Virus record (IMG/VR): IMGVR_UViG_3300045974_000806
Coordinates: 1-64,000 of that record
DNA length: 64,000 bases
Direction: 5' to 3' (one strand)
Origin: a virus
Part shown: piece by piece, positions 27,122-41,647 of the stretch
Layout: each line of letters opens with the position of its first letter
Position numbering within the stretch: the first letter of the stretch is position 1
Translations under genes and position numbers: made by a program
Notes under the pieces: model-generated
Databases searched by the model: none
Seen by the model: only the letters and a program-made list of their open reading frames with translations
Told to the model about the DNA's origin: nothing

Positions 27122-29119
27122 ATGACCCTTGACCAACTCCGCATGCAGGACTCGCAGCGCCTTGACCGCGGTGACGTGGAGCACCTGACCAACGTCCCGT
27201 TGGAGGCCGTGAAGTCCCTGTCCGCGGCACTGCTGGTGGGAGCCGGCCGCGCGCACGTCATCTCCGGCTTCAAGCTGGAAGTGAGCGGGCTGTCCACGGC
27301 CAGGGTCCTCAAGGTGGTGAAGGGCACGGCCATCCTGTCCATGCGGGACGCGTTGAACCAACCGTCCTACGGCGTGGTGACCGCGGAGGGTGACGCCCAG
27401 CGGCTGCTGGACATGAGCGGCTTTGGTTCCGGAACCTGGGGCGTGTGGCTGCGCTTTGAGCAGCAGGACGGCGCCTTTGCCAACCGGGTGTTCTGGGACC
27501 CGCTGGCCGTCAAGGAGTTCGCGCAGAACGTCCCCACGCGCAAGATGGCCAACTGGGGCCTCACCACGGTGAGCGTTGCTTCTTCCGGGCTGGCACCCTC
27601 CACGTCCCCGGGCGCGGAATGGGTCTACCTGGGCTACGCCGTCATCAGCGGCGGGTCCCTGGCGGTGACGCCGGCGCGGGACCTGTTCTTTGAAGGGACG
27701 GAGGCCACGGGCACCCCCTATGACCAGCCGTGGGGCACGGGCCTGGACCGGGACACGGACAGGTCCGCCAACGGGCTCAAAGACCTGAGCACGTTCGCCA
27801 GCGCGGTGCTCAAGAAGCTGGGTGAGATTCAGAGTGCCAGCGCGCGCTGGTGGACTGCGCCGCCGGAGCCCCTGGACCAGAAGGTGTCCAAGCACGGTGA
27901 CTCCGTGAGCGGCAGCTACACGTTTGCCGGCGGCAACATCTACTTCACCACCACGTCCCCGGTGTACTTCCAAAGCGCGGCGTTCAGCACGGGATGGGAC
28001 CTTGCCACCGCGGCCTCCCCGTTTGGCAGCGCCTACGTGGACACGCTCTACACCAAGAACGGAATCCAGCGGAACACCACCACCGGGTCCGCCACGCAGG
28101 ACATTGGCACCCTGGCGGACTCGTTTGCCACGCTCTACGGGCAGGCCCTGGACCTGCGCGGGACCTCCGCAACCATGGTCATGGTGGGCCACGCCACCAA
28201 GCCGCTGATGCGGTTCTTTGACACCGACGTGCCGGCCAACCGCGCCAACATCTACGCGGACACCGCGTCCGGCGCCCCCTACCTGGGCCTGTCCACGGAG
28301 GGTACCGTCAAGCGCGTGGCCATCATGCCGGACAACAACGCGTTTGGCGGCGCCACGGTGGCGTTTGACGCGGACGGAGGGGACGGAAACCCCTACGTGT
28401 TCCCGCTCCAAAACGCCTCCGGGGGCAACGGCGTGCGCCTTGGCGCCGCGGCCCTGCGTTGGCACACGGTCTACGGACTCAACGCCAACTTTGACTTCCT
28501 GCTCCCCAAGACCGCGGGCACGTCCGCCATTGGCCAGTCCGGGTCCCATTGGGGTGACGTGTTCAGCGATGCCGCGCACATTGCAGGCCGGGTCACGGCC
28601 CAGCAAGCCTATCCGGACGCGGACGCCGGCGCCGGCCGCAAGCTGGGTGACAGCAGCAACCGTTGGGCATCCTGCGACGTGATGACGGGCGTGTTTTACA
28701 CCAGCCTGGAAGTGACCGGAGCCGGAGCCGGCTTCACACTGGGCGCGGGAACCATGCACGCGGGCGCCAACGGGCAAGTCAACGTGCCCACCATCTTTTC
28801 CGACGCCAATGGCATCAAGGTGGGGAAGATCAGCGGCCTGGGCGCGGGCAATCCCGTCAACATCCGGACCAACGGCCCCAACTTCACGGACCCCATCATC
28901 TACTGGGACCAAGACCTCTACAACGGGACCATCTGGAAGTTCCGCTATAACAGCGGTTCCGGAAGCCCGCCGGATCAGCACGGCGTCAACCCGCCCAGTG
29001 TGGATGACGCGATCATCCTGCGCACCAACGGCTACGCGCTCAAGTGCCAAGTGTACAACGGGTCTGGGTACACCAACGTGTGGTTGCTGGCCTACTTTGG
29101 CGCGAACCTTCCGGGCTGA
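27122..29119 (+). CDS. tail fibre protein
   Basis: 665 residues. ATG 27122 is supported by AGAGGAG at 27109-27115. The N terminus is helical (LDQLRMQDSQRLDRGDVEHL), the middle has repeats of the type found in phage fibre shafts (QDIGTLADSFATLYGQALDL; SHWGDVFSDA; SSNRWASCDVMTG), where a surface phrase 'x-lGs-x-W-x-x-l' recurs, and the C terminus is a beta-rich tip. This is the last gene of the tail module; 86 non-coding bases follow before the next gene. Confidence 0.82.
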   Translation: MTLDQLRMQDSQRLDRGDVEHLTNVPLEAVKSLSAALLVGAGRAHVISGFKLEVSGLSTARVLKVVKGTAILSMRDALNQPSYGVVTAEGDAQRLLDMSGFGSGTWGVWLRFEQQDGAFANRVFWDPLAVKEFAQNVPTRKMANWGLTTVSVASSGLAPSTSPGAEWVYLGYAVISGGSLAVTPARDLFFEGTEATGTPYDQPWGTGLDRDTDRSANGLKDLSTFASAVLKKLGEIQSASARWWTAPPEPLDQKVSKHGDSVSGSYTFAGGNIYFTTTSPVYFQSAAFSTGWDLATAASPFGSAYVDTLYTKNGIQRNTTTGSATQDIGTLADSFATLYGQALDLRGTSATMVMVGHATKPLMRFFDTDVPANRANIYADTASGAPYLGLSTEGTVKRVAIMPDNNAFGGATVAFDADGGDGNPYVFPLQNASGGNGVRLGAAALRWHTVYGLNANFDFLLPKTAGTSAIGQSGSHWGDVFSDAAHIAGRVTAQQAYPDADAGAGRKLGDSSNRWASCDVMTGVFYTSLEVTGAGAGFTLGAGTMHAGANGQVNVPTIFSDANGIKVGKISGLGAGNPVNIRTNGPNFTDPIIYWDQDLYNGTIWKFRYNSGSGSPPDQHGVNPPSVDDAIILRTNGYALKCQVYNGSGYTNVWLLAYFGANLPG

Positions 29120-29130
29120 TTCCGGAAGCC

Positions 29131-29143
29131 GCAATTTTGCCGT
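29131..29143 (+). promoter_or_regulatory. 13-bp element GCAATTTTGCCGT (copy 1 of 3)
   Basis: Nearly identical elements occur at 35026-35038 and 51328-51340 (GCAATCTTGCCGT). Copy 1 sits in the gap between the tail module and the first replication-side gene, directly followed by TTGACG at 29143-29148; copy 3 directly follows a TTGACG. The core GCAA-N2-TTGC is a short inverted repeat, so a protein-binding site is possible. Function is not known. Confidence 0.35.
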
Positions 29144-29208
29144 TGACGAAAACCACGCACACGTGCGAACAATTCCCCATCACCGGGTGAGCCGGTCATG
29201 GAGGAGTG

Positions 29209-29595
29209 ATGCTTCACGTCAACGCGTCGTTGGCGGAATTGCTGCGTCTGCGCAGCACGTTCCAAGCCTATGTCCGTCTGGATGTTGCCCTGATGGATAT
29301 GTGCCACGGGGACCCTGCCGCGGCCCTGTTGCTGTCCTACGCCCTGGACCTCTACGTGGTGCATGCCGGCACCGCGGTGGACGGCTGGTGGCCCATGCCC
29401 TGGGCCGGCGTCACCGCGGTCACGCGCCTCCCGCCCAAGCGGGCTGCCACGGCCATGGGCCGGCTGAAGGCCCTGGGATTCATCCAGGCAGAGGTGCGTC
29501 GGGTTCCGGATGGCCGCACCGGGCAGTTCGTCCGGCTCAGTGAGCCCATCCTGCTGGGAGCGTGGATGCGCCGGGTCCATGGGGGCCAAAAGTGA
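29209..29595 (+). CDS. winged-helix DNA-binding protein, possible replication initiator/regulator
   Basis: 128 residues. ATG 29209 is used; GTG 29206 is an alternative, and GAGGAG at 29201-29206 serves either poorly or well. The C-terminal half (GVTAVTRLPPKRAATAMGRLKALGF, read as TAVTRLPPKRAATAMGRLK then GFIQAEV with RTGQFVRL) has the helix-turn-helix-wing pattern of winged-helix proteins such as phage replication initiators and small regulators. It ends exactly where the repeat-rich non-coding region 29596-30040 begins, the arrangement typical of an initiator gene and its origin. Initiator role is inference. Confidence 0.75.
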   Translation: MLHVNASLAELLRLRSTFQAYVRLDVALMDMCHGDPAAALLLSYALDLYVVHAGTAVDGWWPMPWAGVTAVTRLPPKRAATAMGRLKALGFIQAEVRRVPDGRTGQFVRLSEPILLGAWMRRVHGGQK

Positions 29596-29602
29596 AAAAC
29601 CT

Positions 29603-29747
29603 CAATGATATTAGGGAAACCCCGATTCGGGGTTTCCGGAAAACAGCAGCGTTCACGGGCACATGCGCGGTTCCGGAAGCGCGGGCTCCGCGGGTGGAGT
29701 TGCCAGAAACCCCAATGAAATTAGGGAAACCCCGATTCGGGGTTTCC
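29603..29747. repeat. 35-bp direct repeat with hairpin, copies 29603-29637 and 29713-29747
   Basis: The copies differ at one base (CAATGATATTAGG versus CAATGAAATTAGG) and share 27 identical bases to the end. Each contains GGAAACCCCG-ATT-CGGGGTTTCC, a perfect 10-bp stem with a 3-base loop, at 29615-29637 and 29725-29747. No U-tract follows on the + strand, so a plain + strand terminator is unlikely. Confidence 0.9.
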
Positions 29748-29749
29748 CA

Positions 29750-29815
29750 ACTTGAAGACGACTTGAAGACGACTTCAACGCGTGTTGAAACCGACTTCAA
29801 TACGTTCAATCGGTA
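29750..29815. repeat. 11-bp phased iterons (candidate initiator binding sites)
   Basis: Successive units are ACTTGAAGACG (29750), ACTTGAAGACG (29761), ACTTCAACGCG (29772), TGTTGAAACCG (29783), ACTTCAATACG (29794) and a partial TTCAATCGG (29805). TTGAA and its complement TTCAA recur every 11 bases, about one helical turn, so all sites face one side of the helix. This is characteristic of iteron arrays bound cooperatively by initiators. Confidence 0.7.
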
Positions 29816-29948
29816 TATCCGGAAGAACCGGATCTTCCGGAGAGAGACAAGATCAAAACCAATGGCCCTGAACGGTTGTTCAGTGCTAGCACGGGAGGGG
29901 GAAAAGGGTGCAAGTCACCTTTTGAAAACCTGCCGTGAAAGGGCCATC

Positions 29949-30001
29949 ACTGGCTGCGCCAGTAGAGGGCCTGCGGGCTGCTGCGCAGCCCTCCGGCCCT
30001 C
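29949..30001. other. two adjacent hairpins, the second compound
   Basis: ACTGGC-TGC-GCCAGT spans 29949-29963. Immediately after, 29965-30001 folds as GAGGGCC/GGCCCTC (7 bp), a symmetric 3-by-3 internal loop (TGC opposite TCC), GGGCTGC/GCAGCCC (7 bp) and a TGC loop. The structure ends 39 bases before the helicase ATG. It could be an RNA leader structure, a primosome loading site or a terminator lacking a U-tract; the sequence cannot decide. Confidence 0.75.
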
Positions 30002-30040
30002 CCAGGATGCTTGGCTGACACGCTGGGAAGGATTCAGGCC

Positions 30041-31600
30041 ATGACCCATAGCTACCCACCCCCCGGAAGCGAACGTCAAGCCTGGGCCGGCCCAGGGGCC
30101 TTGGTTGAAAGGGGCAACACCTGGGCGCGGCTGTCCAACCTCCCGCCCCAGACGGTGGCCGCGGTGGATGCCGCCACGTCCTACGCCACCGCCCAGGTGG
30201 ACACCGGCGGGTGGCGTCCCCCGGAAGCGGTCATGGGCGAGGAGGTGTGGGACGGCTGGGTCCATCTGGCCCGGTTCCCCGCCCCGGGCGTGGCCCTGGT
30301 GCCGGCCGGCCTGCTGGAACTGGCCCAGGCTGCCCTGGCGTCCACCGGCGTGCAGGCCCAGGTCGTGGACCACCGGGTCCGGACGGAGCCCGGCGTGCCG
30401 GACCCCGCCACCATTCCGCTGCGCCCCTACCAGCGCGCCGCGGTGGCGGCCCTGATGGATGCCGGCCAGGGCGTGCTGGACATGCCCCCACGTTCCGGAA
30501 AGACGCGCACGGCCATTGAGGCGGTGCGGCAGGTGGCGTTGCCGGCCCTGTGGATTGTCCCCACGCTCAACATTGGCAAACAAACGCAGGCCGCCGCGGA
30601 AGAGTTCATGGGCCGCAACTGGGCCGTGTTCGTTTCCGGAAACGCCGCGGCGGAAGAGGCCGCCGGCGCCCCGGTGGTGATTGTCACGCCCAACACGGCC
30701 GCGGCCCTGTCGGACGCCTTCTACGCCACGCGCAAGGTGCTGGTGATGGATGAATGCCACCACCAAGCCGCGTCCACGTGGCGGACCATCTCCAACCGCA
30801 CGCCGCACATCTGGTGGCGGTGGGGCATGTCCGGAACCTTCTTCCGGAGCGGGGAGGATGACCTTGCCATGCGCGCGGTCCTGTCCCGCGTGGTCTACCG
30901 GGTGACCGCCCAGGAACTGGTGGACATGGGGAACCTTGTGACCGGGGACGTGGTGTTCCTCCCGGTCCTGTGCGCCCTGGTGCCGTCCAGCCCGGGCAAG
31001 TCCTTCCAGGCCGGCGTGGGGGCCAAGGGAATCTTCCGGAATGACTTCCGGTCCCAGCTTGCCGCCTGGGCCGCGGCCAGCCTGTGCGCCGCCGGCAAGC
31101 GCACGGTGGTGCTGGTGGGGACCAAGGAGCAGGGCAGGACCATCACGGAGGCGCTGGAAGCGGCCCTGCCCAGGGACACAACCAGCCCCTGGAAGGCGGC
31201 GGAGTTCATCTCCACAGACCGCCCATCCAAGGTGTGCCAGGACGTCCTGGCGGCGTTCACCGCCGGCAACGGCGTGCGCGTGCTGATTGGCACGTCCATG
31301 ATCGGGGAGGGCACGGACCTCCCGACATCGGACGCGCTGGTGTACGCGATGGGCGGCAAGGCGGAGGTGAGCCACACGCAGGCCGCCTACCGCGTGATCA
31401 CCGCGGTCCCAGGCAAGCGCCGCGCAATCATCGTGGACTTCGCAGACCGTCACAACCCGACGCTGCTCCGCCATTCCGAGGAACGCCTGCGCACCTACGT
31501 GGGACAGCCGGTGTTCCGGACGCACGTGTTGCAACAGGTGGAAGAGTTCCAGGGTTGGCTGCAACACGGTGAGACGTTTTTGCCCCAGCCCACTACCTAG
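30041..31600 (+). CDS. superfamily 2 DNA helicase (UvsW-like)
   Basis: 519 residues from ATG 30041; an in-frame TTG at 30011 would run into the hairpin region and is less likely. Motif Q/I area LRPYQRAAVAAL then PPRSGKTRTAIEAV (Walker A, about residues 148-160), motif II MDECHHQ (DECH, residue about 237), motif III GMSGTF, motif V GTSMIGEGTDLP and a motif VI-like QAAYRV. The DECH type and size match T4 UvsW and related branch-migration helicases that unwind R-loops and stalled forks. It opens the replication block just past the candidate origin. The stop codon overlaps the conserved 31-bp promoter motif. Confidence 0.9.
   Translation: MTHSYPPPGSERQAWAGPGALVERGNTWARLSNLPPQTVAAVDAATSYATAQVDTGGWRPPEAVMGEEVWDGWVHLARFPAPGVALVPAGLLELAQAALASTGVQAQVVDHRVRTEPGVPDPATIPLRPYQRAAVAALMDAGQGVLDMPPRSGKTRTAIEAVRQVALPALWIVPTLNIGKQTQAAAEEFMGRNWAVFVSGNAAAEEAAGAPVVIVTPNTAAALSDAFYATRKVLVMDECHHQAASTWRTISNRTPHIWWRWGMSGTFFRSGEDDLAMRAVLSRVVYRVTAQELVDMGNLVTGDVVFLPVLCALVPSSPGKSFQAGVGAKGIFRNDFRSQLAAWAAASLCAAGKRTVVLVGTKEQGRTITEALEAALPRDTTSPWKAAEFISTDRPSKVCQDVLAAFTAGNGVRVLIGTSMIGEGTDLPTSDALVYAMGGKAEVSHTQAAYRVITAVPGKRRAIIVDFADRHNPTLLRHSEERLRTYVGQPVFRTHVLQQVEEFQGWLQHGETFLPQPTT
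31569..31599 (+). promoter_or_regulatory. conserved 31-bp phage promoter motif (copy 1 of 4)
   Basis: Left block GTGAGACGTTT, variable middle TTGCCCCAGCC, right block CACTACCTA. If GAGACG acts as the -35 and TACCTA as the -10, the spacer is 17 bases. This copy overlaps the last codons of the helicase gene and lies 101 bases before the next start, leaving room for a structured leader. Confidence 0.65.
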
Positions 31601-31608
31601 AGTATTGA

Positions 31609-31680
31609 AGGGGAGCCATAAGGCCCCCTCCGAGGCCCAGGGTGCGTGACTCCATCACTCCACCACCCTGGGCAATCTTT
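31609..31680 (+). promoter_or_regulatory. structured leader upstream of the 31701 gene
   Basis: Two stems lie between the promoter motif and the gene: a small GGGG...CCCC stem at about 31610-31627 and a perfect 10-bp inverted repeat GCCCAGGGTG (31635-31644) / CACCCTGGGC (31664-31673) with a 19-base loop, followed by AATCTTT. It may be a weak intrinsic terminator or attenuator, or an operator. Other genes with the same promoter motif have leaders of only about 20 bases. Confidence 0.55.
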
Positions 31681-31700
31681 CCCACCTTCCGGAGGAACCC

Positions 31701-32111
31701 ATGAGCAAAGACGGCAAGTTCAGGCTTGGCATCGACATGCACGACGAACAGTTGCGGGTGGCCATGGGCGACCCCAACCGGCTGGCCCTTTGGGCGGAGC
31801 AGACGGGGCGCGGGTTCATTGTGCTCAACACGCGCCACCTCATCCGCGCGCTGGAATGGCCCGCCGGCATCCAACTGGTGCAGCAGGTGGTGAGCGCCTA
31901 CCGCGACTTCCGCCGGACCCTTCCGGATGCGTACCGGGAACAGGTGACCGCCACGGACCACGCCACCGGCCGGCAGGTCACGGTGGAGACGGACGTCATG
32001 CTGGACGAGACGCCCAGCCTGGACGAGATTGCCGCGCTCCGGAAGCAGTTGGATGACATGGAGGCGGACGTTCGCGCGGACCTGGGCCGGCGCAAGGCGG
32101 TGCGGTCATGA
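31701..32111 (+). CDS. hypothetical protein in the replication block
   Basis: 136 residues; GGAGG at 31692-31696 precedes ATG 31701. The centre is mixed alpha/beta (RGFIVLNTRHLIRALEW) and the C terminus is a likely coiled coil (LDEIAALRKQLDDMEADVRAD). I do not recognise it. It is the first gene of a coupled set (next ATG overlaps its stop) that includes an Hfq-like protein and the replicative helicase, under the conserved promoter motif. Confidence 0.78.
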   Translation: MSKDGKFRLGIDMHDEQLRVAMGDPNRLALWAEQTGRGFIVLNTRHLIRALEWPAGIQLVQQVVSAYRDFRRTLPDAYREQVTATDHATGRQVTVETDVMLDETPSLDEIAALRKQLDDMEADVRADLGRRKAVRS

Positions 32112-32515
32112 GCGGCCCGTGGCTCCCTCCGTTGCCGTTGTCTTACGTGCCGCCCGCCACCCCGGACGGCCCCAGCAAGAGCGCGCCCGGGCAGAAGAAA
32201 CGGAAGAACTACGGGCCGGAGAGTGAGATGTGGGACGCGCTGAAGGGAACGCGCGTCCACATCCGCCTGCTGGACGGTGACCTTTGCTGGGGCGTCCTGG
32301 CCTGGGTGGACGTGTTCACCATTGCCGTGGACCTTGACTCGTTCCTGGCGGGGAAGCGCCTCGACTACGCGGCAAGCCGTGTCAACCCACCGCGCCGGAG
32401 GATGATCTACAAGCACGCCATCTCCGACGTGGGCGAGTCCCGCTCCCAGGTTCCGGAAGAGGACCCGGAAGGCCGGCACACCATTCCCCTGGACTCGGAC
32501 GTGCGCCGGCCATGA
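32108..32515 (+). CDS. Hfq/Sm-like RNA-binding protein
   Basis: 135 residues. Residues about 42-76 read ALKGTRVHIRLLDGD then GVLAWVDVFTIAVDL, and residues 99-108 are MIYKHAISDV. This matches the two Sm motifs of bacterial Hfq, whose Sm2 motif contains YKHAIS and whose Sm1 motif has the VNG...D-x-F pattern; the Asp, Phe, Tyr, Lys and His of the RNA-binding rim appear present. A loop of about 20 residues (AGKRLDYAASRVNPP) is inserted before Sm2, and basic and acidic tails flank the core. Family knowledge: Hfq hexamers bind small RNAs and U-rich or A-rich RNA. A phage-borne copy could redirect host RNA control; that is inference. Stop and start are coupled with both neighbours. Confidence 0.75.
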   Translation: MSGPWLPPLPLSYVPPATPDGPSKSAPGQKKRKNYGPESEMWDALKGTRVHIRLLDGDLCWGVLAWVDVFTIAVDLDSFLAGKRLDYAASRVNPPRRRMIYKHAISDVGESRSQVPEEDPEGRHTIPLDSDVRRP

Positions 32516-33126
32516 GCGCGCTGGCCTTCACCCTGGTGGAGGATTGGAACGTCTACCTGATGCAGACGTTCCACGTTCACCAGATGCGCGCCCAGGGGCG
32601 CTACATCGGGACCCGCCGGCCCAATGCGGCCAACGTGGCCATGATGGATGCCATGGTGGAATGGTGCCGCGGCCGGGCCATTGAGCCGCGCCAGTGGCTG
32701 TTCTTCCTGTTCAAGCGCACCAACTGGCGGTTCCCCCCGAAGTGGCAAGAGGGCTACCTGATGAGCGAGGCGGCGGCAAAGAAGTTCCGGAAGCCGGCCA
32801 AGTACAGCCTTGCGTTCTTCCGCCGGCGGATGGGCGCCGCGGCGGTGGTGGATGACGCCGCCTATGACCCCAACCGGGACATCACGCCGGCAACGGAAGC
32901 CCTCAAGGCCCGCTACGCGGAAAGCGGGCAGCAGATGCGGTGCCTGGATGAAACGCTGGTGCGCACCGCCGGCTTCCATCCGCAGTCCCGCGTGTGCGCC
33001 GCGTGCAAGCTGTCCCAGGAATGCGCCCTGGCCCTGGAAGCCGCGGCACCGTTTGCCATCCTGGCCCTCCGTTCCGGAATAATCACCAGCAGCGAAGCTG
33101 AAAGACAGGCCGTCCTCCATGACTGA
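32512..33126 (+). CDS. hypothetical protein with a C-terminal Cys cluster
   Basis: 204 residues, ATG overlapping the previous stop. The N-terminal 110 residues are aromatic and basic (WLFFLFKRTNWRFPPKWQEGY) and the C terminus has VCAACKLSQECALALE, a CxxCx5C cluster that resembles the Cys-rich motif in the histone-like gene at 36445 and may bind zinc or an iron-sulphur centre. I do not recognise the family. It overlaps the start of the replicative helicase by 8 bases, so a partner role (for example loader) is possible but unproven. Confidence 0.75.
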   Translation: MSALAFTLVEDWNVYLMQTFHVHQMRAQGRYIGTRRPNAANVAMMDAMVEWCRGRAIEPRQWLFFLFKRTNWRFPPKWQEGYLMSEAAAKKFRKPAKYSLAFFRRRMGAAAVVDDAAYDPNRDITPATEALKARYAESGQQMRCLDETLVRTAGFHPQSRVCAACKLSQECALALEAAAPFAILALRSGIITSSEAERQAVLHD

Positions 33127-34621
33127 TGCGCCACCGCCCATCCGGCGCCGCGGAATCCAGAACCCCCAGCAGCCGGGCCTCACGTCCCAGGACACGGAGC
33201 ACCTTCCCCTGGACGCGGACTTCCAGGGCGTGCTCATCAAGATGCTGTTGGAGGACCACGACCTTGCCGCGGGCCTGGGTGGGCACCTCCACCCCACGTT
33301 CTTTGCAAGCCCGGTCCACCGGTGGGCCTGGGACTATTGCCTCCGGTACAAGCAGGACATTGGCGGCTACCCAACGCTGAACTTCCTTGTGTCCTCCGCC
33401 GGCCAGATGCCCGGCAGCGGCCCGCTGTTCTCCGCCACCCTGGCCCAGATTCGGGACCGGCCCATCACGGACGAGGTGGCCGTGCGCACGCAGGCCGTGG
33501 ACTTCATCCGCCGCAGCGTGTTCAAGCGCGCGGTGCTGGACAGCAAAGACCTGTTCAACGCCGGCAAGTACGGCGCCGCCTATGACCTCATGAAGGAACG
33601 CATGGGCGTGCTGGATGCCGTGAGCATTGAGCCGGTGAGCCGCGCGTGGTTCTCGGAAGAGTTCGTGTCCCGCCACATCGAACGCCAGGACCCCACCTAT
33701 CAGGCCAGCGCCATTGCCACCGGCATCCCGCCGCTGGATGGCCGGCCACCCCAGGGCGTGCTGGACGGCGGGTTGCACCTGGGTGAACTGGGCCTGTGGA
33801 TTGCCTATCCCAAGGCCGGCAAGACCACCATGTTGATCAACCTGGGCGCGGTGGCCGTGCGCACGCAGCGCAAGAGGACGCTCCACATTGTGCTTGAGGG
33901 CAGTCTTTCCTACGTGGAGGCCCGCTATGACAGCGTGTTCACCGGTGAACTCTACGTCAACGTGAAGCGGGGCGAGGTGGACGCCCAGAAGTACGCGCGC
34001 GCGTTTGCGGAGATGCAGGAACTCCGGCGCATGCTTGTCATCCGCGACTTCACAAAGACGGGTGACGCCAACATCACGCACGTGGACGGGGAACTGCGGG
34101 ACCTTGCCCGCGGCTTTGGGTTCCAGCCGGAATTGATCGTGCTGGACTACGTGGACCTGCTCCAAGCCAAGTACCGCTATGAGCGCGAGGTGGAGGCGGC
34201 CAAGGCGGCCATGCAAGACTTGAAGAACCTTGCCAACCGCGGCTACGCGGTGTGGAGCGCGTCCCAGGTCCAACGCCCGACGGACGATGAGTACCAGCAC
34301 CGCCAGCACACCCTGGTGAGCAAGAACATTGCGGACTGTTACGCCAAGGTGCGCATTGCTGACTTTGTGGGGAGCATCAACCAGACGGTGGCGGAGCGGG
34401 AACAGGGCGTGATGCGCCTCTTTGCGGAACTGTACCGGGACGGCCCCAGCGGCGTGAACATCCAGATCAACACGGACTTCACCACCATGACGTTCAGCGG
34501 CGGTTCCGCGGTCGTCACGCCGGCACCTGGGCCTGAGCGTTCAACGGACGCGTCAGTGCAGGCAACCAAGCCCATGCTCTACAAGACCGGAGGCTACCAA
34601 CAGAAGCGCGGAGTGACGTGA
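33119..34621 (+). CDS. dnaB: replicative DNA helicase, DnaB-like
   Basis: 500 residues. Unwinds DNA 5'-3' ahead of the fork as a hexamer. The N-terminal domain (LPLDADFQGVLIKMLLEDHD) resembles the DnaB N-terminal helical domain. The RecA-like core shows Walker A AYPKAGKTTMLINLG (about residues 228-242), Walker B LIVLDYVDLL (about residue 340) and a Gln-bearing WSASQVQRP sensor (motif H3). It overlaps the previous gene by 8 bases and the primase start follows at the stop codon, the normal helicase-primase pairing. Confidence 0.93.
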   Translation: MTDAPPPIRRRGIQNPQQPGLTSQDTEHLPLDADFQGVLIKMLLEDHDLAAGLGGHLHPTFFASPVHRWAWDYCLRYKQDIGGYPTLNFLVSSAGQMPGSGPLFSATLAQIRDRPITDEVAVRTQAVDFIRRSVFKRAVLDSKDLFNAGKYGAAYDLMKERMGVLDAVSIEPVSRAWFSEEFVSRHIERQDPTYQASAIATGIPPLDGRPPQGVLDGGLHLGELGLWIAYPKAGKTTMLINLGAVAVRTQRKRTLHIVLEGSLSYVEARYDSVFTGELYVNVKRGEVDAQKYARAFAEMQELRRMLVIRDFTKTGDANITHVDGELRDLARGFGFQPELIVLDYVDLLQAKYRYEREVEAAKAAMQDLKNLANRGYAVWSASQVQRPTDDEYQHRQHTLVSKNIADCYAKVRIADFVGSINQTVAEREQGVMRLFAELYRDGPSGVNIQINTDFTTMTFSGGSAVVTPAPGPERSTDASVQATKPMLYKTGGYQQKRGVT

Positions 34622-35691
34622 TGGATGAACTGACCCTGGCCCTTCAACGGTTTGACCTGCTGGCCTACGTGGAGGCCAAGGGCGCGGTGAAGGACGGCCG
34701 TGACGAGATGGTGTTGTTTTGCCCGCAGTGCGAGACGGAGAAGCTGACCGTGAACCCGCACAACCGCATGTGGCGGTGCTTCCGGTGTGAGTACCTGACG
34801 GAGACGGGCGCGCTGCACGGCGCCAAGCCCCGGGGCAACGTGTTCCAACTGGTGGAGTGGCTGGAAGGCACGTCCAAGCGTGACACCGCGCGGTTCATCC
34901 TTGAGCGCGCTTCCGGACAGACCGCGGACGCCATGGCCGGCCCCCTGGTGACGGACTTTGCACCGGTGGTGACGCACGCGCTCAAACGCCCCACGGGCCT
35001 TCCGGAATCTTGTGTTGCAATCACCGCAATCTTGCCGTACATGAAACGGCGCGGCATCACATTGGAGGACGCGGCGATGTTTGGCTTGGGGCATGTGCCG
35101 GCGGAGGCGGGCGGGTGGTTGGCCAACCGGATCATCTTTCCGGTGTGGGACCGCGGCCAGTGTCTCTATTGGCAGGCCCGCGCGTGCTGGGACGTGCATG
35201 AGCACGTGGCCCGCTGGCCCGGTGACAAGTTCCGGAAGAGCCTGAACCCGTCCAGTGAGCGCAACGGCCAGTTCTTCCTGGGTTCGTCTGACGTGGTGGG
35301 CAACTTGGAGAGCGCAGTGGCGTGCAGCCCGCGCCCGGTGATCGTGGAAGGCCCCACGTCCGGAATCCGCACAGGCCCGGACGCCATGTGGACGTTCGGC
35401 AAGAACCTCTACCCGGCCCAGGTGGTGCGGATGGTGGAGCACGGCGTGCGCGCGGTGGACTTCATGTGGGACGGCCCGTCCGCTCCGGACGCCGCCGGCG
35501 TGCGCAAGGAGCCCCTGGGCGCGTGGCCGGACATGCTGCGCCACGCCCCCACGCTGGTGAGTGCCGGCATTGACGTGCGCGTGGTGTTCATCCCCCAGGG
35601 GGACCCGGGCGACTATTCCAGGGCAGAAGTGGCGGAGATGCGGCGGGTTTGGTCCCGCCCGTTCGCGGAGGTGTCAACGTGGTCGCTGTGA
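34621..35691 (+). CDS. DNA primase with CHC2-type zinc finger
   Basis: 356 residues. ATG 34621 is chosen over GTG 34618 because GGAG at 34610-34613 then sits 7 bases away. A zinc ribbon at C34, C37, C53 and C56 (FCPQCETE, WRCFRCEY) begins the protein, followed by VFQLVEWLEG. The Toprim-like part includes RIIFPVWDRGQCLYWQAR, VIVEGPTSGI (catalytic Glu region) and VDFMWDGPSAPDA (the DxD-like acidic region appears weakened to a single D). It makes RNA primers and pairs with the helicase encoded just upstream. A patch near 35000-35110 uses unusual codons and contains copy 2 of a 13-bp element. Confidence 0.88.
   Translation: MDELTLALQRFDLLAYVEAKGAVKDGRDEMVLFCPQCETEKLTVNPHNRMWRCFRCEYLTETGALHGAKPRGNVFQLVEWLEGTSKRDTARFILERASGQTADAMAGPLVTDFAPVVTHALKRPTGLPESCVAITAILPYMKRRGITLEDAAMFGLGHVPAEAGGWLANRIIFPVWDRGQCLYWQARACWDVHEHVARWPGDKFRKSLNPSSERNGQFFLGSSDVVGNLESAVACSPRPVIVEGPTSGIRTGPDAMWTFGKNLYPAQVVRMVEHGVRAVDFMWDGPSAPDAAGVRKEPLGAWPDMLRHAPTLVSAGIDVRVVFIPQGDPGDYSRAEVAEMRRVWSRPFAEVSTWSL
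35026..35038 (+). promoter_or_regulatory. 13-bp element GCAATCTTGCCGT (copy 2 of 3), inside the primase gene
   Basis: Identical to the copy at 51328-51340 and one base from 29131-29143. It lies in coding sequence (A-I-L-P) with GCA and TTG codons that are uncommon in this phage, so selection on the DNA is possible. No promoter hexamers are evident here. Confidence 0.3.
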
Positions 35692-35930
35692 AGAAGAAGC
35701 GCGCCGGGAAGTTCCAGCATCCGGAACGGCGCAAGATGACTGTCCTGCTGGCTCCGGAACTGTATCGGGGCCTGGAAGACGTCTGCCAAAGCATGGGCGC
35801 GTCAAAGAACACCGTGGCGCTCATGGGCATTGCCTGGATGACGTATCTTCTCCATGGGATGCGTGAAGGGGACACGCGGATGGCCAAGCACGTGTTGTTG
35901 AAGCACCTTGAAACATGCCTTCCTGGGTGA
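35679..35930 (+). CDS. small ribbon-helix-helix-like DNA-binding protein
   Basis: 83 residues from GTG 35679, seven bases after GGAGG (35667-35671); GTG 35688, overlapping the previous stop, is an alternative. After a basic start (VKKKRAGKFQHPERRK) comes MTVLLAPELYRGLEDVCQ then MGASKNTVALMGIAWM, a strand followed by two helices that matches the Arc/MetJ/CopG pattern. Such proteins repress promoters as dimers. Target unknown. It precedes the sigma-like gene, so both may belong to a regulatory pair. Confidence 0.72.
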   Translation: MVAVKKKRAGKFQHPERRKMTVLLAPELYRGLEDVCQSMGASKNTVALMGIAWMTYLLHGMREGDTRMAKHVLLKHLETCLPG

Positions 35931-35979
35931 GCCGGGAAGTGCTTTGGCCCGGCCGGACGGCCCGGGCGCGGAGTGATGG

Positions 35980-36435
35980 ATGGACCAGACCAAGGCGGTG
36001 CGCGCCCTCGCGCGCAAGTTCCGGCGTTCCAGCGATGACGACTGGGATGGCCTGACACAGGAAGACTGGGAGCAGGAACTCCGGATTGCGTGGTGGCTGG
36101 CGGAGAAGTCCGGAAAGCCACCGGTGCTGGGCGCCTACTTCCGCGCCAGGGAATTGCAGCGCACCCGCTGGGCCGCGTTCCGGATGCGTGAAAGGGTCCT
36201 GGCGGTGCAGCACCTCCAAAAGGAGGCGGACCCGCTGACGGACCCCGCCCAACACACGTCGGCTTGTATCCGGAATGCCCACAGCCTACTGTCTCCGGAA
36301 CTGTGGGACGTGATGAACTGCATGGGCGCTGGGATGTCCACACCTGAAGTGGCGGCGGAGTTCGGTTGGACCCGCGCCACAGCAGGCCGGCGCATCCAAG
36401 CGGCCCGGGAGCAGGCCCACCACATCCTGAAGTAG
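35980..36435 (+). CDS. phage sigma-factor-like protein
   Basis: 151 residues. Residues about 1-72 resemble a sigma region 2 helix bundle (DDDWDGLTQEDWEQELRIAW, then LGAYFRARELQRTRW). Residues about 104-150 look like region 4 (LLSPELWDVMNCMGAGMS, then EVAAEFGWTRATAGRRIQAA), a clear helix-turn-helix. Length suits an ECF-like or phage late sigma factor. It lies 9 bases upstream of the next gene and after a ribbon-helix-helix gene. I infer it may direct RNA polymerase to the four-copy 31-bp promoter motif; no direct evidence. Alternative: a small HTH regulator unrelated to RNA polymerase. Confidence 0.7.
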   Translation: MDQTKAVRALARKFRRSSDDDWDGLTQEDWEQELRIAWWLAEKSGKPPVLGAYFRARELQRTRWAAFRMRERVLAVQHLQKEADPLTDPAQHTSACIRNAHSLLSPELWDVMNCMGAGMSTPEVAAEFGWTRATAGRRIQAAREQAHHILK

Positions 36436-36444
36436 GAGCGGACC

Positions 36445-37464
36445 ATGCCGGTGCAGATCAAGCGCGACGAACGGACGGACGAATCCCTGGTGACGGACCA
36501 ACCCTGTTACGGGGAGATGTTCGCCGCGGATGACCCGGAGTGCCGGCACAACTGCGCCGCGCGGGACCTGTGCATGGACCGGACCCTGCGCGCCACCATT
36601 CCGGAACGCATGGGCCTCAAGCAGGTCCCCAACGTGCCGGCCAGCTACACCGCCCAGCGCATTGCCCTGGTGCTGGATTCGACGGAGCAGACCGCCCAGG
36701 CCCTGGTGGACCTGCGCCGCGGGAAGACCCCGGATCTTGCGCTGGGCATCACCACCCCAGAAGACGACGACACCGCGGCGGACATTGATGCCGTGGTTGA
36801 CATGGTGTCCACCATGCAGGCACAACCGCCTGCCATTCCGGAACATCCGGAACCCGCACCCAAGGAGACGGCGATGAAGAAGCCGGAGAAGAAGAAGGCC
36901 GCCGCGAAGGTGGCAAAGAAGCCGGCGGCAAAGAAGGCCGCCCCCAAGAAGACCCCCGCCCCCAAGAAGGCCAAAGTGAAGACGGCCAAGGCCATCAAGG
37001 GTGAGGCGGACGAAGCGTCCCTGGGCGCCTGGACGCGTGAGCGCGCGCGTTCCGCCTGGGTGCGCGGACTGCCCCCTGGCGCCGCGTTTGAGCGTGAGTT
37101 CCACGGCAAGGTCTACACCCTCAAGGTGGACCTGACAGACCGCCGCTACCTGCTGAACGGCAAGCCCTTCCCCACCGTCTACGCGGCCACCGCCGCGGTG
37201 GTGGGCAAGGCCGAGTCCGCCACGGCAGACGGCGGGACCCGCACCATGCCGGCGTGGTCCTCCCAGCGGTTCTGGGCTCCCAAGAGCAAGGCCAAGGGCA
37301 AGGCCGCCGGCAAGAAGGCCGCGCCCGTCAAGAAGGCCAAGGGCAAGGCCGTCAAGGTCAAGCCGGTGAAGGCGCCCCAGGTTCCGGAAGCCCCCAAGGC
37401 GCCGGCCCTGCCCCCGCCCATCACCAAGCCTTCCGCGGTTCCGGAACTGGCCCTGGCCGGCTGA
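36445..37464 (+). CDS. histone H1-like Lys/Ala-rich protein with Cys cluster and DUF2924-like domain
   Basis: 339 residues. Order: a four-Cys cluster (C21, C33, C37, C43; CYGEMF, ECRHNCAARDLC), a short helical domain, a Lys/Ala/Pro tail at about 145-185 (KKAAAKVAKKPAAKKAAPKK), a compact domain at about 193-280 with FHGKVYTLKVDL, RYLLNGKPFPT and QRFW that resembles DUF2924 (a small domain often next to phage or integrated-element recombination genes), a second Lys/Ala tail at 280-312, and a Pro-rich end. The tails resemble eukaryote-type histone H1 and bacterial Hc1/Hc2 proteins, suggesting DNA coating. Start overlaps nothing; RBS AGGAG at 36434-36438. Confidence 0.8.
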   Translation: MPVQIKRDERTDESLVTDQPCYGEMFAADDPECRHNCAARDLCMDRTLRATIPERMGLKQVPNVPASYTAQRIALVLDSTEQTAQALVDLRRGKTPDLALGITTPEDDDTAADIDAVVDMVSTMQAQPPAIPEHPEPAPKETAMKKPEKKKAAAKVAKKPAAKKAAPKKTPAPKKAKVKTAKAIKGEADEASLGAWTRERARSAWVRGLPPGAAFEREFHGKVYTLKVDLTDRRYLLNGKPFPTVYAATAAVVGKAESATADGGTRTMPAWSSQRFWAPKSKAKGKAAGKKAAPVKKAKGKAVKVKPVKAPQVPEAPKAPALPPPITKPSAVPELALAG

Positions 37465-37471
37465 GATACGC

Positions 37472-37503
37472 AACGTCGGTCAGACCGGACTTGGACCGAC
37501 GTT
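37472..37503. promoter_or_regulatory. perfect 10-bp inverted repeat upstream of the polymerase gene
   Basis: AACGTCGGTC (37472-37481) and GACCGACGTT (37494-37503) flank a 12-base loop. It lies 8 bases after the histone-like gene stop and 85 bases before the polymerase start. No U-tract follows, so an operator or translational hairpin is more likely than a terminator. Confidence 0.65.
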
Positions 37504-37588
37504 ATGTATCAGTTCCTGCAACAACCCCGTGACCTGACGGGCCGCGCTGCATGGTGAGTGCAGGCGGCAGCAGGGGAGGTGGTTCCCA

Positions 37589-39643
37589 TTGTTCGCGCAA
37601 CTGCGTGCGTTTGAATACCAGCGTGACGACCCGCGCCACCGCGTCATCCGCACGGTGCCGGAGTTCCAGAACGCCATCCACTGGCTTGCCCAGCAGCCCA
37701 CCCTGGCGGTGGACACGGAAACCTCCGGCCTCGCTTGGTACAGAGACGCCAGCGTGTGCGGCGTTGCCATGGGCGCAATGCGCGAGGGTGCGCCGCAATG
37801 CTTCTACTTCCCGGTGAGGCACCAGACCGGGGAGGTGCAACTTCCCCCGGACATTGTGTTTGCCGCGGTGCGGGACATCCTGGCCAACCCGGCCCTGGAA
37901 ACCATCTGGCACAACAAGAAGTTCGACCAACACATGCTCCGTCGGGAGCGCGTCCACATCCTGGGCCGTGCCCGGGACACCATGGTGGAGGCGCAACTGG
38001 CGGACGAGAACGCGCCCCTGGCCCTCAAGGCCCGCGCCCTGGCGGACCTGGGCGACAAGCGCGCCCACGCGTTTGAGGACACCCTGGACCGCGCGGTGGG
38101 CCGGCTGGCCAAAGAGGCCAAGTGCAAGAAGACAGAGTTCAGGGACCGCTACGGATACGCGCGCGTGGATGTGATGCTGGCCGGCATCTACGCGTGCTGG
38201 GACATCGACTTCACCCTGGGCCTCGCCAACACGTATGACCGCCGCGGCATCCGGCAGTTCTTCCGGAACACGTATGAGACGGAGATCGCGTTGATCGACG
38301 TCCTGTGCGAGATGGAAGAGAACGGGATGCCCGTCAACCGGGACTACCTTGAGTGGCTGGCCGGCGAGACGGATGCAGCCAAGGACGCGCTGCTCCCCCA
38401 GATCCACGCCGCGGCCGGTGGCTACGTGTTCCGTCCGGAAGAGGACGCGGAGGTGGTTCACGTCCTGACCAAGCGCCTGGGCGTGCAACTCACAAAGGAG
38501 ACAAAGGCCAGCAAGAAGGCGCGGTGGAACAGCGACGAGGAACACGTGCCAGTGTTCACCGTGGACGCGGAGGTGCTGGGCGCGCTGGCCGCGGAACACC
38601 CCGTGTGCAAGCTGATCCTCGACTACCGGGAGGCCGCGAAGATTCGCGGCACGTACACCACGTCCATCATTGAGCGCATTGGTCATGACGGGAACGTGCA
38701 TGGCGACTTCAAGCAACTGGGCACCAACACCGGCCGCATGAGCAGTGAGAAGCCCAACCTTCAGAACGTCAGCAGCGACAGCAATGACCGCGCAATCGCG
38801 CACAGCGGCCTGCCCCTGAAGAAAGGCGGCCAGGACCCGTGGAGCATCAAGCGCGCGTTCACCAACCGCGGCCCAGGGAAGCGCCGCATCTACAACGACT
38901 ATTCGCAGATCGAATTGCGCGTGCTGGCCTACTACTCGCGGGACCCGGTGATGATGGAGACGTACCTTGACCCCAAGGGCGACATCCACACGCGCACGTC
39001 CATGGAGGTGTTTGGGTCCGCGGATGAAGAGATGCGCCGGGACGCCAAGGTGATCAATTTTGGCCTCTCCTACTGCATGAGCGCCATTGGCTACGCGCGC
39101 AACACGGGCAAGTCCGAGGCCCAGGGCGAAGAGGACATGGAGAGGTTTTTCCGTCGGTACGGCCGCATTGAGCCGTTCCGTGAAGAGTTCTGGCGCCTGT
39201 GCCGGCAGAACGGCGCGGCTTCCGGCACCGCCCCACACTTCCAGAATATGTTCGGCAGGCCACGCCGCATTCCGGACCTGAACTCGCGCAACAAGTGGGA
39301 ACGCATGCGCGCGGAGCGGCAAGCAATCGGGTCCCTCATCCAGGGGACCGCCGCGGAACTCACCAAGGAATCCCTGGTGCGCATCTGGCGGTGGGAACAG
39401 AAGGCGCGCACGGGCCTCATGCTGTGCAGCACGATTCACGACGAGATTAGCTTTGACGTTGACGAGGTGCTGACGGAGCCAGTCCTGGCGGCCGTGGTGC
39501 CAATGCTTGAGACGTTTCCGCAGTTCAACCCGGTTCCCATCCTTGTTGACTCTTCCTACAGCGACACGGATTGGAGCGAGAAAAAGAAGTTCAAGAAGGG
39601 ATTGGTGAAGCATGTTTGGGAACCAGCAAACAGTGACGCTTGA
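37589..39643 (+). CDS. polA: DNA polymerase, family A, with 3'-5' exonuclease
   Basis: 684 residues. The start is TTG 37589; GGGGAGGT at 37573-37580 is 8 bases upstream. Exonuclease motifs: AVDTETSGLAW (Exo I), WHNKKFDQHML (Exo II), YACWDIDFTLG (Exo III). Polymerase motifs: A NDYSQIELRVLAYYSRDP, B RRDAKVINFGLSYCMSAIG, C CSTIHDEISFDV. Motif B has SYC where E. coli Pol I has IYG. The 5' nuclease domain of Pol I is absent, as in most phage enzymes. Replicates the phage genome. The next ATG overlaps the 3' end by 32 bases. Confidence 0.96.
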   Translation: MFAQLRAFEYQRDDPRHRVIRTVPEFQNAIHWLAQQPTLAVDTETSGLAWYRDASVCGVAMGAMREGAPQCFYFPVRHQTGEVQLPPDIVFAAVRDILANPALETIWHNKKFDQHMLRRERVHILGRARDTMVEAQLADENAPLALKARALADLGDKRAHAFEDTLDRAVGRLAKEAKCKKTEFRDRYGYARVDVMLAGIYACWDIDFTLGLANTYDRRGIRQFFRNTYETEIALIDVLCEMEENGMPVNRDYLEWLAGETDAAKDALLPQIHAAAGGYVFRPEEDAEVVHVLTKRLGVQLTKETKASKKARWNSDEEHVPVFTVDAEVLGALAAEHPVCKLILDYREAAKIRGTYTTSIIERIGHDGNVHGDFKQLGTNTGRMSSEKPNLQNVSSDSNDRAIAHSGLPLKKGGQDPWSIKRAFTNRGPGKRRIYNDYSQIELRVLAYYSRDPVMMETYLDPKGDIHTRTSMEVFGSADEEMRRDAKVINFGLSYCMSAIGYARNTGKSEAQGEEDMERFFRRYGRIEPFREEFWRLCRQNGAASGTAPHFQNMFGRPRRIPDLNSRNKWERMRAERQAIGSLIQGTAAELTKESLVRIWRWEQKARTGLMLCSTIHDEISFDVDEVLTEPVLAAVVPMLETFPQFNPVPILVDSSYSDTDWSEKKKFKKGLVKHVWEPANSDA

Positions 39644-40133
39644 CGCCTACGTGCAGCGGCTTTCACAGATGACGGAGCCGGTGACCATGTGGACCCTGGA
39701 CGCCAACGGCGAGGTGATTCCACACTTTCAGGTGGATGGCGCGATCATCCAGAACCTGATGGTGGATGAAGCCACGCTCCGCTCCCAGGTGGACCGCATT
39801 GCGAGTGAACAGATGCACTGGGGGCGCATCACCGCGCGCCAGCAGCGGTGCCACGCGGTGCGGGAACGCCAACTCCGCCAGTGGAAGGCGCGCGTGGAAT
39901 TGGAGTTCCGGAAGGCCCAGGACGACCTGGGCAAGAAAACCACGGAGGCCATGGTGGAAGCCCACTACAGGACCGCCCCGGAATACGCGGTGGTTCAGGT
40001 GAACGTGGAGGCTTGCGCGGAGGCGGCCATGGTGGCGGACGTGATCTACTCCGCGTTCCGCAGCAAGCGGGAGATGCTGCGCACGGACATTGTGCGCGTC
40101 CCCGACGGCAGCCTGCAACGTCTTTCACCCTAG
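39612..40133 (+). CDS. hypothetical protein coupled to the polymerase
   Basis: 173 residues, ATG 39612, overlapping the polymerase gene by 32 bases in another frame. Mostly helical with charged, coiled-coil-like stretches (QQRCHAVRERQLRQWKARVE, LEFRKAQDDLGKKT). I do not recognise a family. Position between polymerase and the single-strand-binding protein suggests a replication or recombination accessory (for example a mediator), but nothing in the sequence proves it. Confidence 0.75.
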   Translation: MFGNQQTVTLDAYVQRLSQMTEPVTMWTLDANGEVIPHFQVDGAIIQNLMVDEATLRSQVDRIASEQMHWGRITARQQRCHAVRERQLRQWKARVELEFRKAQDDLGKKTTEAMVEAHYRTAPEYAVVQVNVEACAEAAMVADVIYSAFRSKREMLRTDIVRVPDGSLQRLSP

Positions 40134-40164
40134 GTGAGACGTTTCCGGCCCAGGACACTACCTA
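40134..40164 (+). promoter_or_regulatory. conserved 31-bp phage promoter motif (copy 2 of 4)
   Basis: GTGAGACGTTT, middle CCGGCCCAGGA, CACTACCTA. It begins at the stop codon area of the preceding gene and ends 22 bases before the ATG of the single-strand-binding protein gene, with purine-rich AAGAAGAGAGGG between. Confidence 0.7.
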
Positions 40165-40186
40165 CAAAGAAGAGAGGGAATCACCC

Positions 40187-41647
40187 ATGAACAACCCCTA
40201 CCAGCAGCAGCCCCCGCAGCAGTTCCCCCAGCAACCCCAACAGCAACAGCAGTGGGCGCAGCCGCAGATGGCCGGCCCGCCCATGCAGCAGCAGATGCCG
40301 CAGCAGCAGTGGATGGGCCAGCCCGGAATGCCCATGCCCCAGCAGCAGTGGATGGGCCAGCCCGGAATGCCCATGCCCCAGCAGGCTCCCCAGGGCATGC
40401 CCATGCCCTCCCAGGCTCCGGCGGCACCACCGCCCCCGCTGCCCACCGTGCAGTCCCTCCCCCAGTACCAAGGCACGGACGCCGCCATGGTGGCCGCCGC
40501 CTACGCCGCGGCGGAGGAAGAGCGCGCCCGCCAGACGGAAGCGCGCAACCGCCAGGGCCTGTCCTACTGGGATGGCCCCAAGTGCCCCACCGGCCAGAAG
40601 TGGGGACAGGCCCCCAAGGGCGCCAAGGCCACCGCCTACGTGTGGCTGTGCCCCACGGCGGTGCCGGGCACGCTCCCCTTCCGGAAGGTGGACACGCACT
40701 TTTGGAAGTCCGCGGCATACCCCAAGGGCGTGAGCATCCTGTGCCTGGGCGCCGCGTGCCCGCTCTGCACGGCCCGCAACCTGTTGTTCTCCACGGGCAA
40801 CGCCGCGGATGCAGAGAAGGCCAACGCCATGCGGCGCGCGCGCACGCAGGCGTATTGGAGCATCATCTCCCTGGACGACCCCTATGAGATGCTTGACACC
40901 AAGACGGGCCAGATGGCGCCCCTGGTGTGGCGCATGCCCGGCGGGACCCACCAAGACCTGATGGACTGCTTCAAGATGGTGGAGGAGATGACCCGCAAGA
41001 CCAACGCGGCCGTCCCCGTGGGTTCCGGAATGGACCTGTGCGTCAACCCCCAGCACGGCCGCGCGTTCGCCGTGACCAAGGAGAAAGTGGGGGCCGCCGA
41101 GATGAATATTGAGTGGAAGATCCAGCAGTGTGACAGCAGCGCGCTCCCCCAGCAGTTCTGGCCGGCGCTCTACAACCTCAAGCCCCTGGACAACTTGGAC
41201 CGCGCTCCCACGCAGGACATTGTGCGGCAGGCCATGACGGACCTGGGCTTGCCGTGGTTCCCCACGGTCACGCAACTGTGGCAGGCCCTCCCGGCAGCCG
41301 CGGCCCCCGCCGCCGGCGCACCCCAGCAGCCCCAGGCCGGCGGGTTCATGCAGCAGCCCGTCCAGGCCATCCCTGGCGGCGCCATGCAGGCCATGCAGCA
41401 GCAGGTCCCGGTCATGCAGCAGGCCCCCCAGCCCATGATGCAGCAGCAGCCCCAGCAGCAGTGGGCAGGCCAGATGCCGGCCCAGGGCATGACGCAGATG
41501 GGCGGACCCCAGATGCCACAGGCCCAGGTGTTCCAGGCCGGCCCCACGGTGCAGCAGATGAACGCGGTCTACGGCCCGCCCGGCCAGCAGCAGCAGCCCC
41601 AGCAGCAGAACGTCCCGCAACTCATCCAGCAACTCCACGGGCGGTGA
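40187..41647 (+). CDS. single-stranded DNA-binding protein (gp32-like) with long Gln/Pro/Met-rich tails
   Basis: 486 residues from ATG 40187; a longer in-frame reading upstream is rejected because it overlaps the preceding gene and passes through the promoter motif. The core at about residues 125-345 contains KVDTHFWKSAAYPKGVSIL, CLGAACPLCTARN and AYWSIISLDDPYE, matching the T4 gp32 zinc and OB-fold region (H...C...CPxC). Residues 1-85 and 365-486 are low-complexity (PQQFPQQPQQQQQW, QQQPQQQWAGQMP). gp32-like proteins coat single-stranded DNA and load recombinase. The tails are unusual for the family, which normally has one short acidic C terminus. Confidence 0.82.
   Translation: MNNPYQQQPPQQFPQQPQQQQQWAQPQMAGPPMQQQMPQQQWMGQPGMPMPQQQWMGQPGMPMPQQAPQGMPMPSQAPAAPPPPLPTVQSLPQYQGTDAAMVAAAYAAAEEERARQTEARNRQGLSYWDGPKCPTGQKWGQAPKGAKATAYVWLCPTAVPGTLPFRKVDTHFWKSAAYPKGVSILCLGAACPLCTARNLLFSTGNAADAEKANAMRRARTQAYWSIISLDDPYEMLDTKTGQMAPLVWRMPGGTHQDLMDCFKMVEEMTRKTNAAVPVGSGMDLCVNPQHGRAFAVTKEKVGAAEMNIEWKIQQCDSSALPQQFWPALYNLKPLDNLDRAPTQDIVRQAMTDLGLPWFPTVTQLWQALPAAAAPAAGAPQQPQAGGFMQQPVQAIPGGAMQAMQQQVPVMQQAPQPMMQQQPQQQWAGQMPAQGMTQMGGPQMPQAQVFQAGPTVQQMNAVYGPPGQQQQPQQQNVPQLIQQLHGR
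40301..40378 (+). repeat. exact 39-bp tandem duplication in the single-strand-binding protein gene
   Basis: Units 40301-40339 and 40340-40378 are identical and in frame, encoding QQQWMGQPGMPMP twice. It lies in the N-terminal Gln/Pro tail. Slippage or unequal recombination is the likely source. Confidence 0.95.

Follow-up and report, generated by a model that had tools for sequence, protein, structure and literature searches.

The described systems closest to the protein studied here are bacterial Hfq, covered by the profiles PF17209 and TIGR02383 and known from E. coli, Caulobacter and S. aureus, and the archaeal and eukaryotic Sm/Lsm proteins (PF01423), which have the same fold. In bacterial Hfq, residues K56, H57 and F42 bind U-rich RNA at the pore. 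Other Hfq-like or Sm-like folds encoded by phages have been little studied and were recognised by fold only; PDB 3BY7, which we take to be the crystal structure of a Sm-like protein of putative cyanophage origin, belongs here. Further cases are gp39 of phage Adephagia, which has an Hfq-like fold (PMC11373665), and the BFVD entries for Mycobacterium phages Tonenili and Phabba named 'Hfq-like domain-containing protein', along with BFVD proteins named 'Sm-like' or 'RNA binding'. Tonenili gave no match with the family profile described below or with PF21979, and a reading of 50 kb of it showed no YKHA. A search of the open literature turned up no study of a phage Hfq, but phage Hfq-like folds themselves are known already, and what is new is a Sm-like family in a fixed slot of SPO1-like phages.

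The protein encoded at 32108..32515 of the window, by which we mean the whole 64-kb stretch of DNA that was analysed, has bacterial Hfq as its best match in both sequence and fold, and shares with it the order of one helix and five strands, the G, D and F residues of Sm1, and YKHAIS. It differs from bacterial Hfq in scoring below the family cut-offs, in having E and S for Q8 and D9 and V for Q41, in a strand 3-4 loop that is 15-17 residues longer, in a Pro-rich N-terminal extension, in its location in a phage replication operon, and in falling outside the sampled Hfq clade. The long strand 3-4 loop is probably a feature it has in common with the Sm/Lsm proteins, from which it is distinguished by the bacterial YKHAIS in place of the Lsm Sm2.

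The window is part of a 110,271-bp virus record (GC 66.8%), almost all genes of which lie on one strand. The genes identify a tailed phage: sheath and baseplate genes point to a contractile tail, and there are also genes for terminase, portal, PolA, UvsX, SbcC/D, a DnaB-like helicase and primase. The major capsid protein (MCP) shares about 36% identity with its counterparts in SPO1-like Bacillus phages; the virus record has no close relative on record, and neither tRNA genes nor a second Sm gene were found in the virus genome. A 3,021-aa ORF is located outside the window, at 90964-100029 of the virus record (L002:6964-16029).

The Sm gene is located within a replication block, as originally predicted, with genes for DnaB-like helicase, primase, PolA, UvsX and SbcCD around it. 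The conserved block, all on the plus strand, is opened by a ResIII/DEAD-type helicase (30011..31600), followed by g25, which encodes an unknown protein and is kept in the block (31701..32111), the Sm gene (32108..32515), g27, which encodes a Cys-rich protein and lies directly 5' of DnaB in the block copies (32512..33126), and the genes for a DnaB-like replicative helicase (33119..34621) and a DNA primase-like protein (34618..35691), the last two assigned by family match. The Sm gene overlaps its neighbours by 4 nt at both ends in an ATGA, its start with the stop of g25 and its stop with the start of g27, and g27 shares 8 nt with the gene for the DnaB-like helicase; start-stop overlaps of this kind usually mean coupled translation. 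Upstream of the operon, in the gap 5' of g25, a perfect 10-bp inverted repeat was read directly from the plus strand (GCCCAGGGTG at 31635-31644 and CACCCTGGGC at 31664-31673, with a 19-nt loop), and it is a possible regulatory hairpin. The promoter motif placed upstream by the original prediction could not be recovered, with no sigma-70-like site found in 29000-40500, and no known sRNA families were found in the window.

Several other features of this region were recorded. In g27, residues C144, H156, C162, C165 and C171 are invariant (C-x17-C-x2-C-x5-C plus H), which from the sequence is likely a Zn or Fe-S site, and the Cys spacing presumably resembles that of WhiB proteins. Just 5' of the replication block, positions 29597-29850 contain two copies of a 41-nt repeat holding the palindrome GGGAAACCCCGATTCGGGGTTTCC, followed by TTGAAGACGACTTGAAGACGACTTCAAC, and the GC content of this stretch drops to 48-52% in comparison to 67% overall, making it a candidate origin or control region. 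Further downstream, the product of 35980-36435 has at its C-terminus an HTH resembling sigma-70 region 4 (Pfam E 0.0014, below the cut-off) and may be a sigma-like factor of the phage. The product of 36445-37464 has four Cys at its N-terminus and a middle part that is rich in Lys, Ala and Pro and resembles histone H1, and it matches DUF2924 weakly.

The Sm gene begins with ATG and encodes 135 aa, and its assignment as an Hfq-like Sm-domain protein is based on the ORF, profiles, predicted fold and conservation. The ORF, which contains LKGTRVHIRLLDGDLCWGVLAWVDVFTIAVDLD and RRMIYKHAISDV, is coding, because its codon usage matches that of the phage itself, both of its ends are in ATGA overlaps, and conservation of the protein sequence extends to other phages. 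All of its parts are on the plus strand. Residues 1-36 (32108..32215) form the Pro-rich extension, which has low pLDDT and is largely private to the window phage; in the closest sister proteins the PES motif is reached after about 5-12 residues. Alignment and model place the predicted N-terminal helix of the Sm fold at GPESEMWDALK (32213..32245), where the window protein reads PES...LKG in comparison to QD..FLN.LR in bacterial Hfq. It is followed by the Sm1 half with predicted strands 1-3 (32252..32332), including G57, G62, D68 (Hfq D40) and F70 (Hfq F42), by the extra loop between strands 3 and 4 at the Sm L4 position (32342..32392), which is basic, has low model confidence and is missing from the sister proteins, and by the aligned Sm2 MIYKHAISDV plus the next strand, residues 99-110 with K102 and H103 (32402..32437); the C-terminal end is a charged tail. 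The ORF is thus as it was first described, an Hfq-type Sm1 followed by an intact YKHAIS Sm2 at residues 101-106. The insert of about 20 residues said to precede Sm2 is present as well, but its size is 15-17 residues when compared with the sister phage and bacterial Hfq.

Among Pfam and NCBIfam families, Hfq was the top family for the window protein, which scored 20.6-22.5 bits against Pfam Hfq PF17209 (E 3.4e-4, cut-off 27) and 23.8-25.7 bits against TIGR02383 (E 3e-5, cut-off 61.7), below all curated Hfq cut-offs. The Hfq-related families of cyanobacterial type, NF047718 and PF21979, gave weak matches to the Sm1 half, again well below cut-off. The syntenic sister protein of contig L006 clears the Pfam Hfq cut-off, with 28.3 versus 27 bits. 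An alignment of the window protein to Hfq of E. coli, B. subtilis and S. aureus runs across the whole domain, and V50, G57, G62, D68 and the entire YKHAIS are identical to those three proteins. The Sm1 glycines, D40 and F42 of Hfq align as G57, G62, D68 and F70, while the Q8-D9 pair of the proximal RNA site is replaced by E38-S39 and the Q41 column has V. When the window and L006 proteins were compared together with bacterial Hfq, hhalign gave a probability of 96.9% (96.9-97.2% over the comparisons made) with both Sm halves covered, and the two-phage profile matched 32 PDB sequences, 31 of them Hfq or Hfq-like, mostly around Sm2.

The signal is retained in the wider phage family. With the 14-member phage profile, Hfq came first in PDB (E 6e-6), and nearly all of the 45 matches were Hfq, Lsm or Sm. 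After removal of every member with KHA, five of six PDB matches were Hfq or Hfq-like, with weak E values of 0.17 and up, and hhalign of members without KHA against Hfq gave 89.8% and 74.5%. For the FKGPG class alone, 22 of 23 PDB matches were Sm, Lsm or Hfq (best E 0.0017), a count that includes 1ycy, a protein of unknown function that we judged to be Sm-like; archaeal Sm and LSm3 were among the best matches. Since the direct profile comparison between the FKGPG and YK classes is weak (9.1%), the link between them rests on position and fold. The similarity thus extends over both halves of the domain and not over YKHAIS alone, which places the proteins in the wide Sm/Lsm/Hfq superfamily.

The AlphaFold model showed a helix at residues 37-45 and strands at 49-54, 59-67, 71-75, 97-101 and 105-110, which is the Sm order. 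With bacterial Hfq rows in the input the block-mean pLDDT was 85-96 outside the extra loop and about 58 within it, in comparison to 45.6 with the two phage rows alone; neither run is unbiased, as the confident one had Hfq rows and the two-row one was poor. The best PDB folds for the model, among the matches listed, were all Hfq, with TM up to 0.89 over the target, and the rmsd to Caulobacter Hfq was near 1 A. The original prediction was to be abandoned if the fold proved not to be a Sm barrel, and an alpha plus five-strand Sm core was predicted, from an alignment that held Hfq rows. The window sequence is compatible with a Sm fold as modelled, and the model is not independent proof of it. Bacterial Hfq is shorter than Sm/Lsm proteins by an internal loop (PMC2650416), and the extra loop in the window protein is probably at the place where Sm/Lsm proteins exceed Hfq in length.

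The block order helicase, g25, Sm, g27, DnaB, primase recurs in SPO1-like phages, often with ATGA or GTGA overlaps. The first homologue came from an alignment-based scan, in the 109-kb contig L006, which has the same six-gene order and lacks the extra loop. A scan from the DnaB-like helicase identified 21 loci with the block, and the Sm-like ORF is intact in the slot of 14 phages, window included; g25 was not recognised by search in L178 and in the FKGPG locus L185. Only two members, the window and L006/L181, keep YKHAIS. The Sm2 variants of the others are YKHAIL (L183), PKHAVA (L169), YKLAIK (L173), YKQSIH (L172), YKSAVA (L178), YKNGIR (L171), YKAGIR (L175), QKSAIS (L170) and FKGPG (L188, L187, L185, L189). 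Just two columns of the family alignment never vary: one holds a leucine of Sm1, and the other the KH lysine (Hfq K56), found in 14 of 14 members. The Sm1 glycine and D40 come close to this, and the residue after the lysine varies; because the histidine differs between members, the lysine and not the full YKHAIS is what their shared function requires. The PES...LKG helix marks the YK-type members; the four FKGPG members lack it, and in some others it is altered. The family of the replication block, to which the window protein belongs, is recognised by its g25-g27 slot upstream of the DnaB-like helicase together with the invariant Sm2 lysine.

The gene is truncated in one phage, where L174:1741-1900 is a remnant without the first domain half that retains the ATGA overlap with g25 (MKGYLGRYLPLDSIGVSLDPKNPENVSTVYKDGLRVE). 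It was not recognised at the block of L179, L180, L182, L184 and L186, and in the near-identical pair L176/L177 the slot was not readable as Sm. With six or seven phages having no recognisable gene and one having a truncated copy, the Sm gene is not essential to the block. The prediction of a phage Hfq-like protein with intact YKHAIS is supported by the profiles, by the sister protein passing the Pfam cut-off and by the predicted Sm core, but in most proteins of this locus the H, the A or the S is gone. Since YKHAIS does not define the family and the insert is private to the window phage, we classify the protein as an Hfq-related Sm protein and not as Hfq.

The window protein used singly as query returned no relative from viral contigs, annotated phages or bacterial genomes, and relatives surfaced solely through alignment-based searches. 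PolA as bait returned nothing in viral contigs. The MCP-anchored search gave 80 relatives; in 50 contigs of MCP relatives, the two-row phage alignment or the Pfam Hfq model matched in L006 only, and the diverged copies came to light in the gene neighbourhoods of g27 and DnaB. E. coli Hfq gave nine matches in 50,697 phage records, mostly host chromosome records or insignificant, with a few unannotated records among them, which suggests that phage Hfq genes with YKHAIS are rare.

Some homologues of the ResIII helicase of the window (30011-31600) in sister phages contain inteins. The DNA of those at the DExH box (L169:1744-2766 and L182:1892-2905) also encodes, in the +1 frame, a conserved ORF of 267 codons (L169:1919-2722 and L182:2058-2861), which matches a DUF559/Vsr-like endonuclease with Pfam E values of 1.9e-10 and 1.8e-7. 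In the main frame the central part of the intein is poorly conserved and the +1 ORF is well conserved, so that a homing endonuclease seems to be nested out of frame. At L179:970-3480 an intein interrupts Walker A of this helicase (MVPR|C...KN|SGKTR) and has a Hom_end_hint domain (E 3.7e-13).

In the domain tree the sampled bacterial Hfqs form one clade (98/100) with no phage protein inside, a result from a short alignment with long branches and a mostly alphaproteobacterial sample, and a recent capture from the host is disfavoured on this ground. The KHA phages are scattered in the DnaB tree and do not form a single clade. As judged from these sequences, an old Sm gene with a drifting Sm2 fits the pattern; alternatively, KHA may have been gained several times independently.

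Taken together, we favour the reading, with a probability of roughly 0.6, that the gene encodes a phage Hfq-related Sm ring which binds RNA and is made together with the replication proteins. The protein would be translated from the replication operon, probably coupled to the neighbour genes, would fold as an N-terminal helix plus a five-stranded Sm barrel, and would assemble into a homo-oligomeric ring, probably hexameric like Hfq. By analogy with Hfq, ring formation is very likely. Single-stranded and probably U-rich RNA would then be bound at the pore via K102, H103 and F70, which correspond to K56, H57 and F42 of Hfq, and this step appears likely by the same analogy, with slightly less assurance. 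The phage's own ring would protect, anneal or reposition transcripts of the phage or of its host during synthesis of the replication proteins; such a general RNA chaperone role is a guess that we rate a little below even.

The alternative that survives best, which we consider possible but clearly less probable, is a dedicated replication accessory, in which the ring would bind an RNA primer, an origin transcript or R-loop, or ssDNA, and would act at initiation alongside g27 and the DnaB-like helicase. Its attraction is that many distant phages have the gene in a fixed slot directly 5' of g27 and DnaB, where starts and stops overlap, and the order in SPO1 is likewise helicase, one gene (gp20.1), DnaB; the homology of g27 to gp20.1, however, is suggestive and not established (hhalign 11.7%). 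The possible origin-like, AT-richer repeats are just 5' of the block, and bacterial Hfq binds DNA too (PDB 5uk7, among the fold matches). On the other hand, several block-bearing phages do without the gene, so that helicase loading is independent of it, and gene order may mirror timing alone. As far as gene arrangement can tell, the fixed slot favours a link in timing at least, and the gene losses speak against an essential replication part.

A broader proposal, which we regard as unlikely at present, is that the SPO1-like lineage has its own Sm-based RNA machinery for starting or controlling DNA replication, with an Sm2 that spans YKHAIS to the Lsm-like FKGPG around one lysine, and that it forms an unrecorded reservoir between Hfq and Lsm; forms intermediate between these two motifs are YKHAIL, YKLAIK, YKSAVA and YKNGIR. 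An antagonist of the host, which would mix into or compete with the host Hfq ring or sponge a nucleotide immune signal, is improbable. The variable Sm2 beside a conserved scaffold, the gene losses and the private insertions would suit such a role, phages do turn RNA-binding folds into sponges (SPO1 Acb4, with a dsRBM-like fold, PMC11722364), and Hfq crystals with bound ATP, UTP and ADP are among the PDB fold matches; but the gene is in the core replication block and not in an accessory or anti-defence cluster, the family scans matched no known sponge family, and the distance of the phage proteins from the sampled bacterial Hfqs makes mixed rings unlikely. Chance resemblance, in which an unrelated small protein happens to hold YKHAIS, can be dismissed as highly improbable, for even though the single-protein scores are low, the main match covers just about 12 residues and the phage-only structure model is poor, only about 0.00016 YKHAIS is expected per whole 110-kb genome from the amino-acid composition of the predicted genes, ignoring the Sm1 match, the syntenic homologue retains YKHAIS and clears the Pfam cut-off, and the Sm signal persists after dropping all KHA members.

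Hfq has been named as a host factor borrowed by an RNA phage, and the DNA phages here bring their own Hfq-related protein. A conserved Sm-like gene at one site of the replication operon is a testable entry to phage-run RNA control, and the range of Sm2 within one gene family bears on the relationship between Hfq and Lsm.
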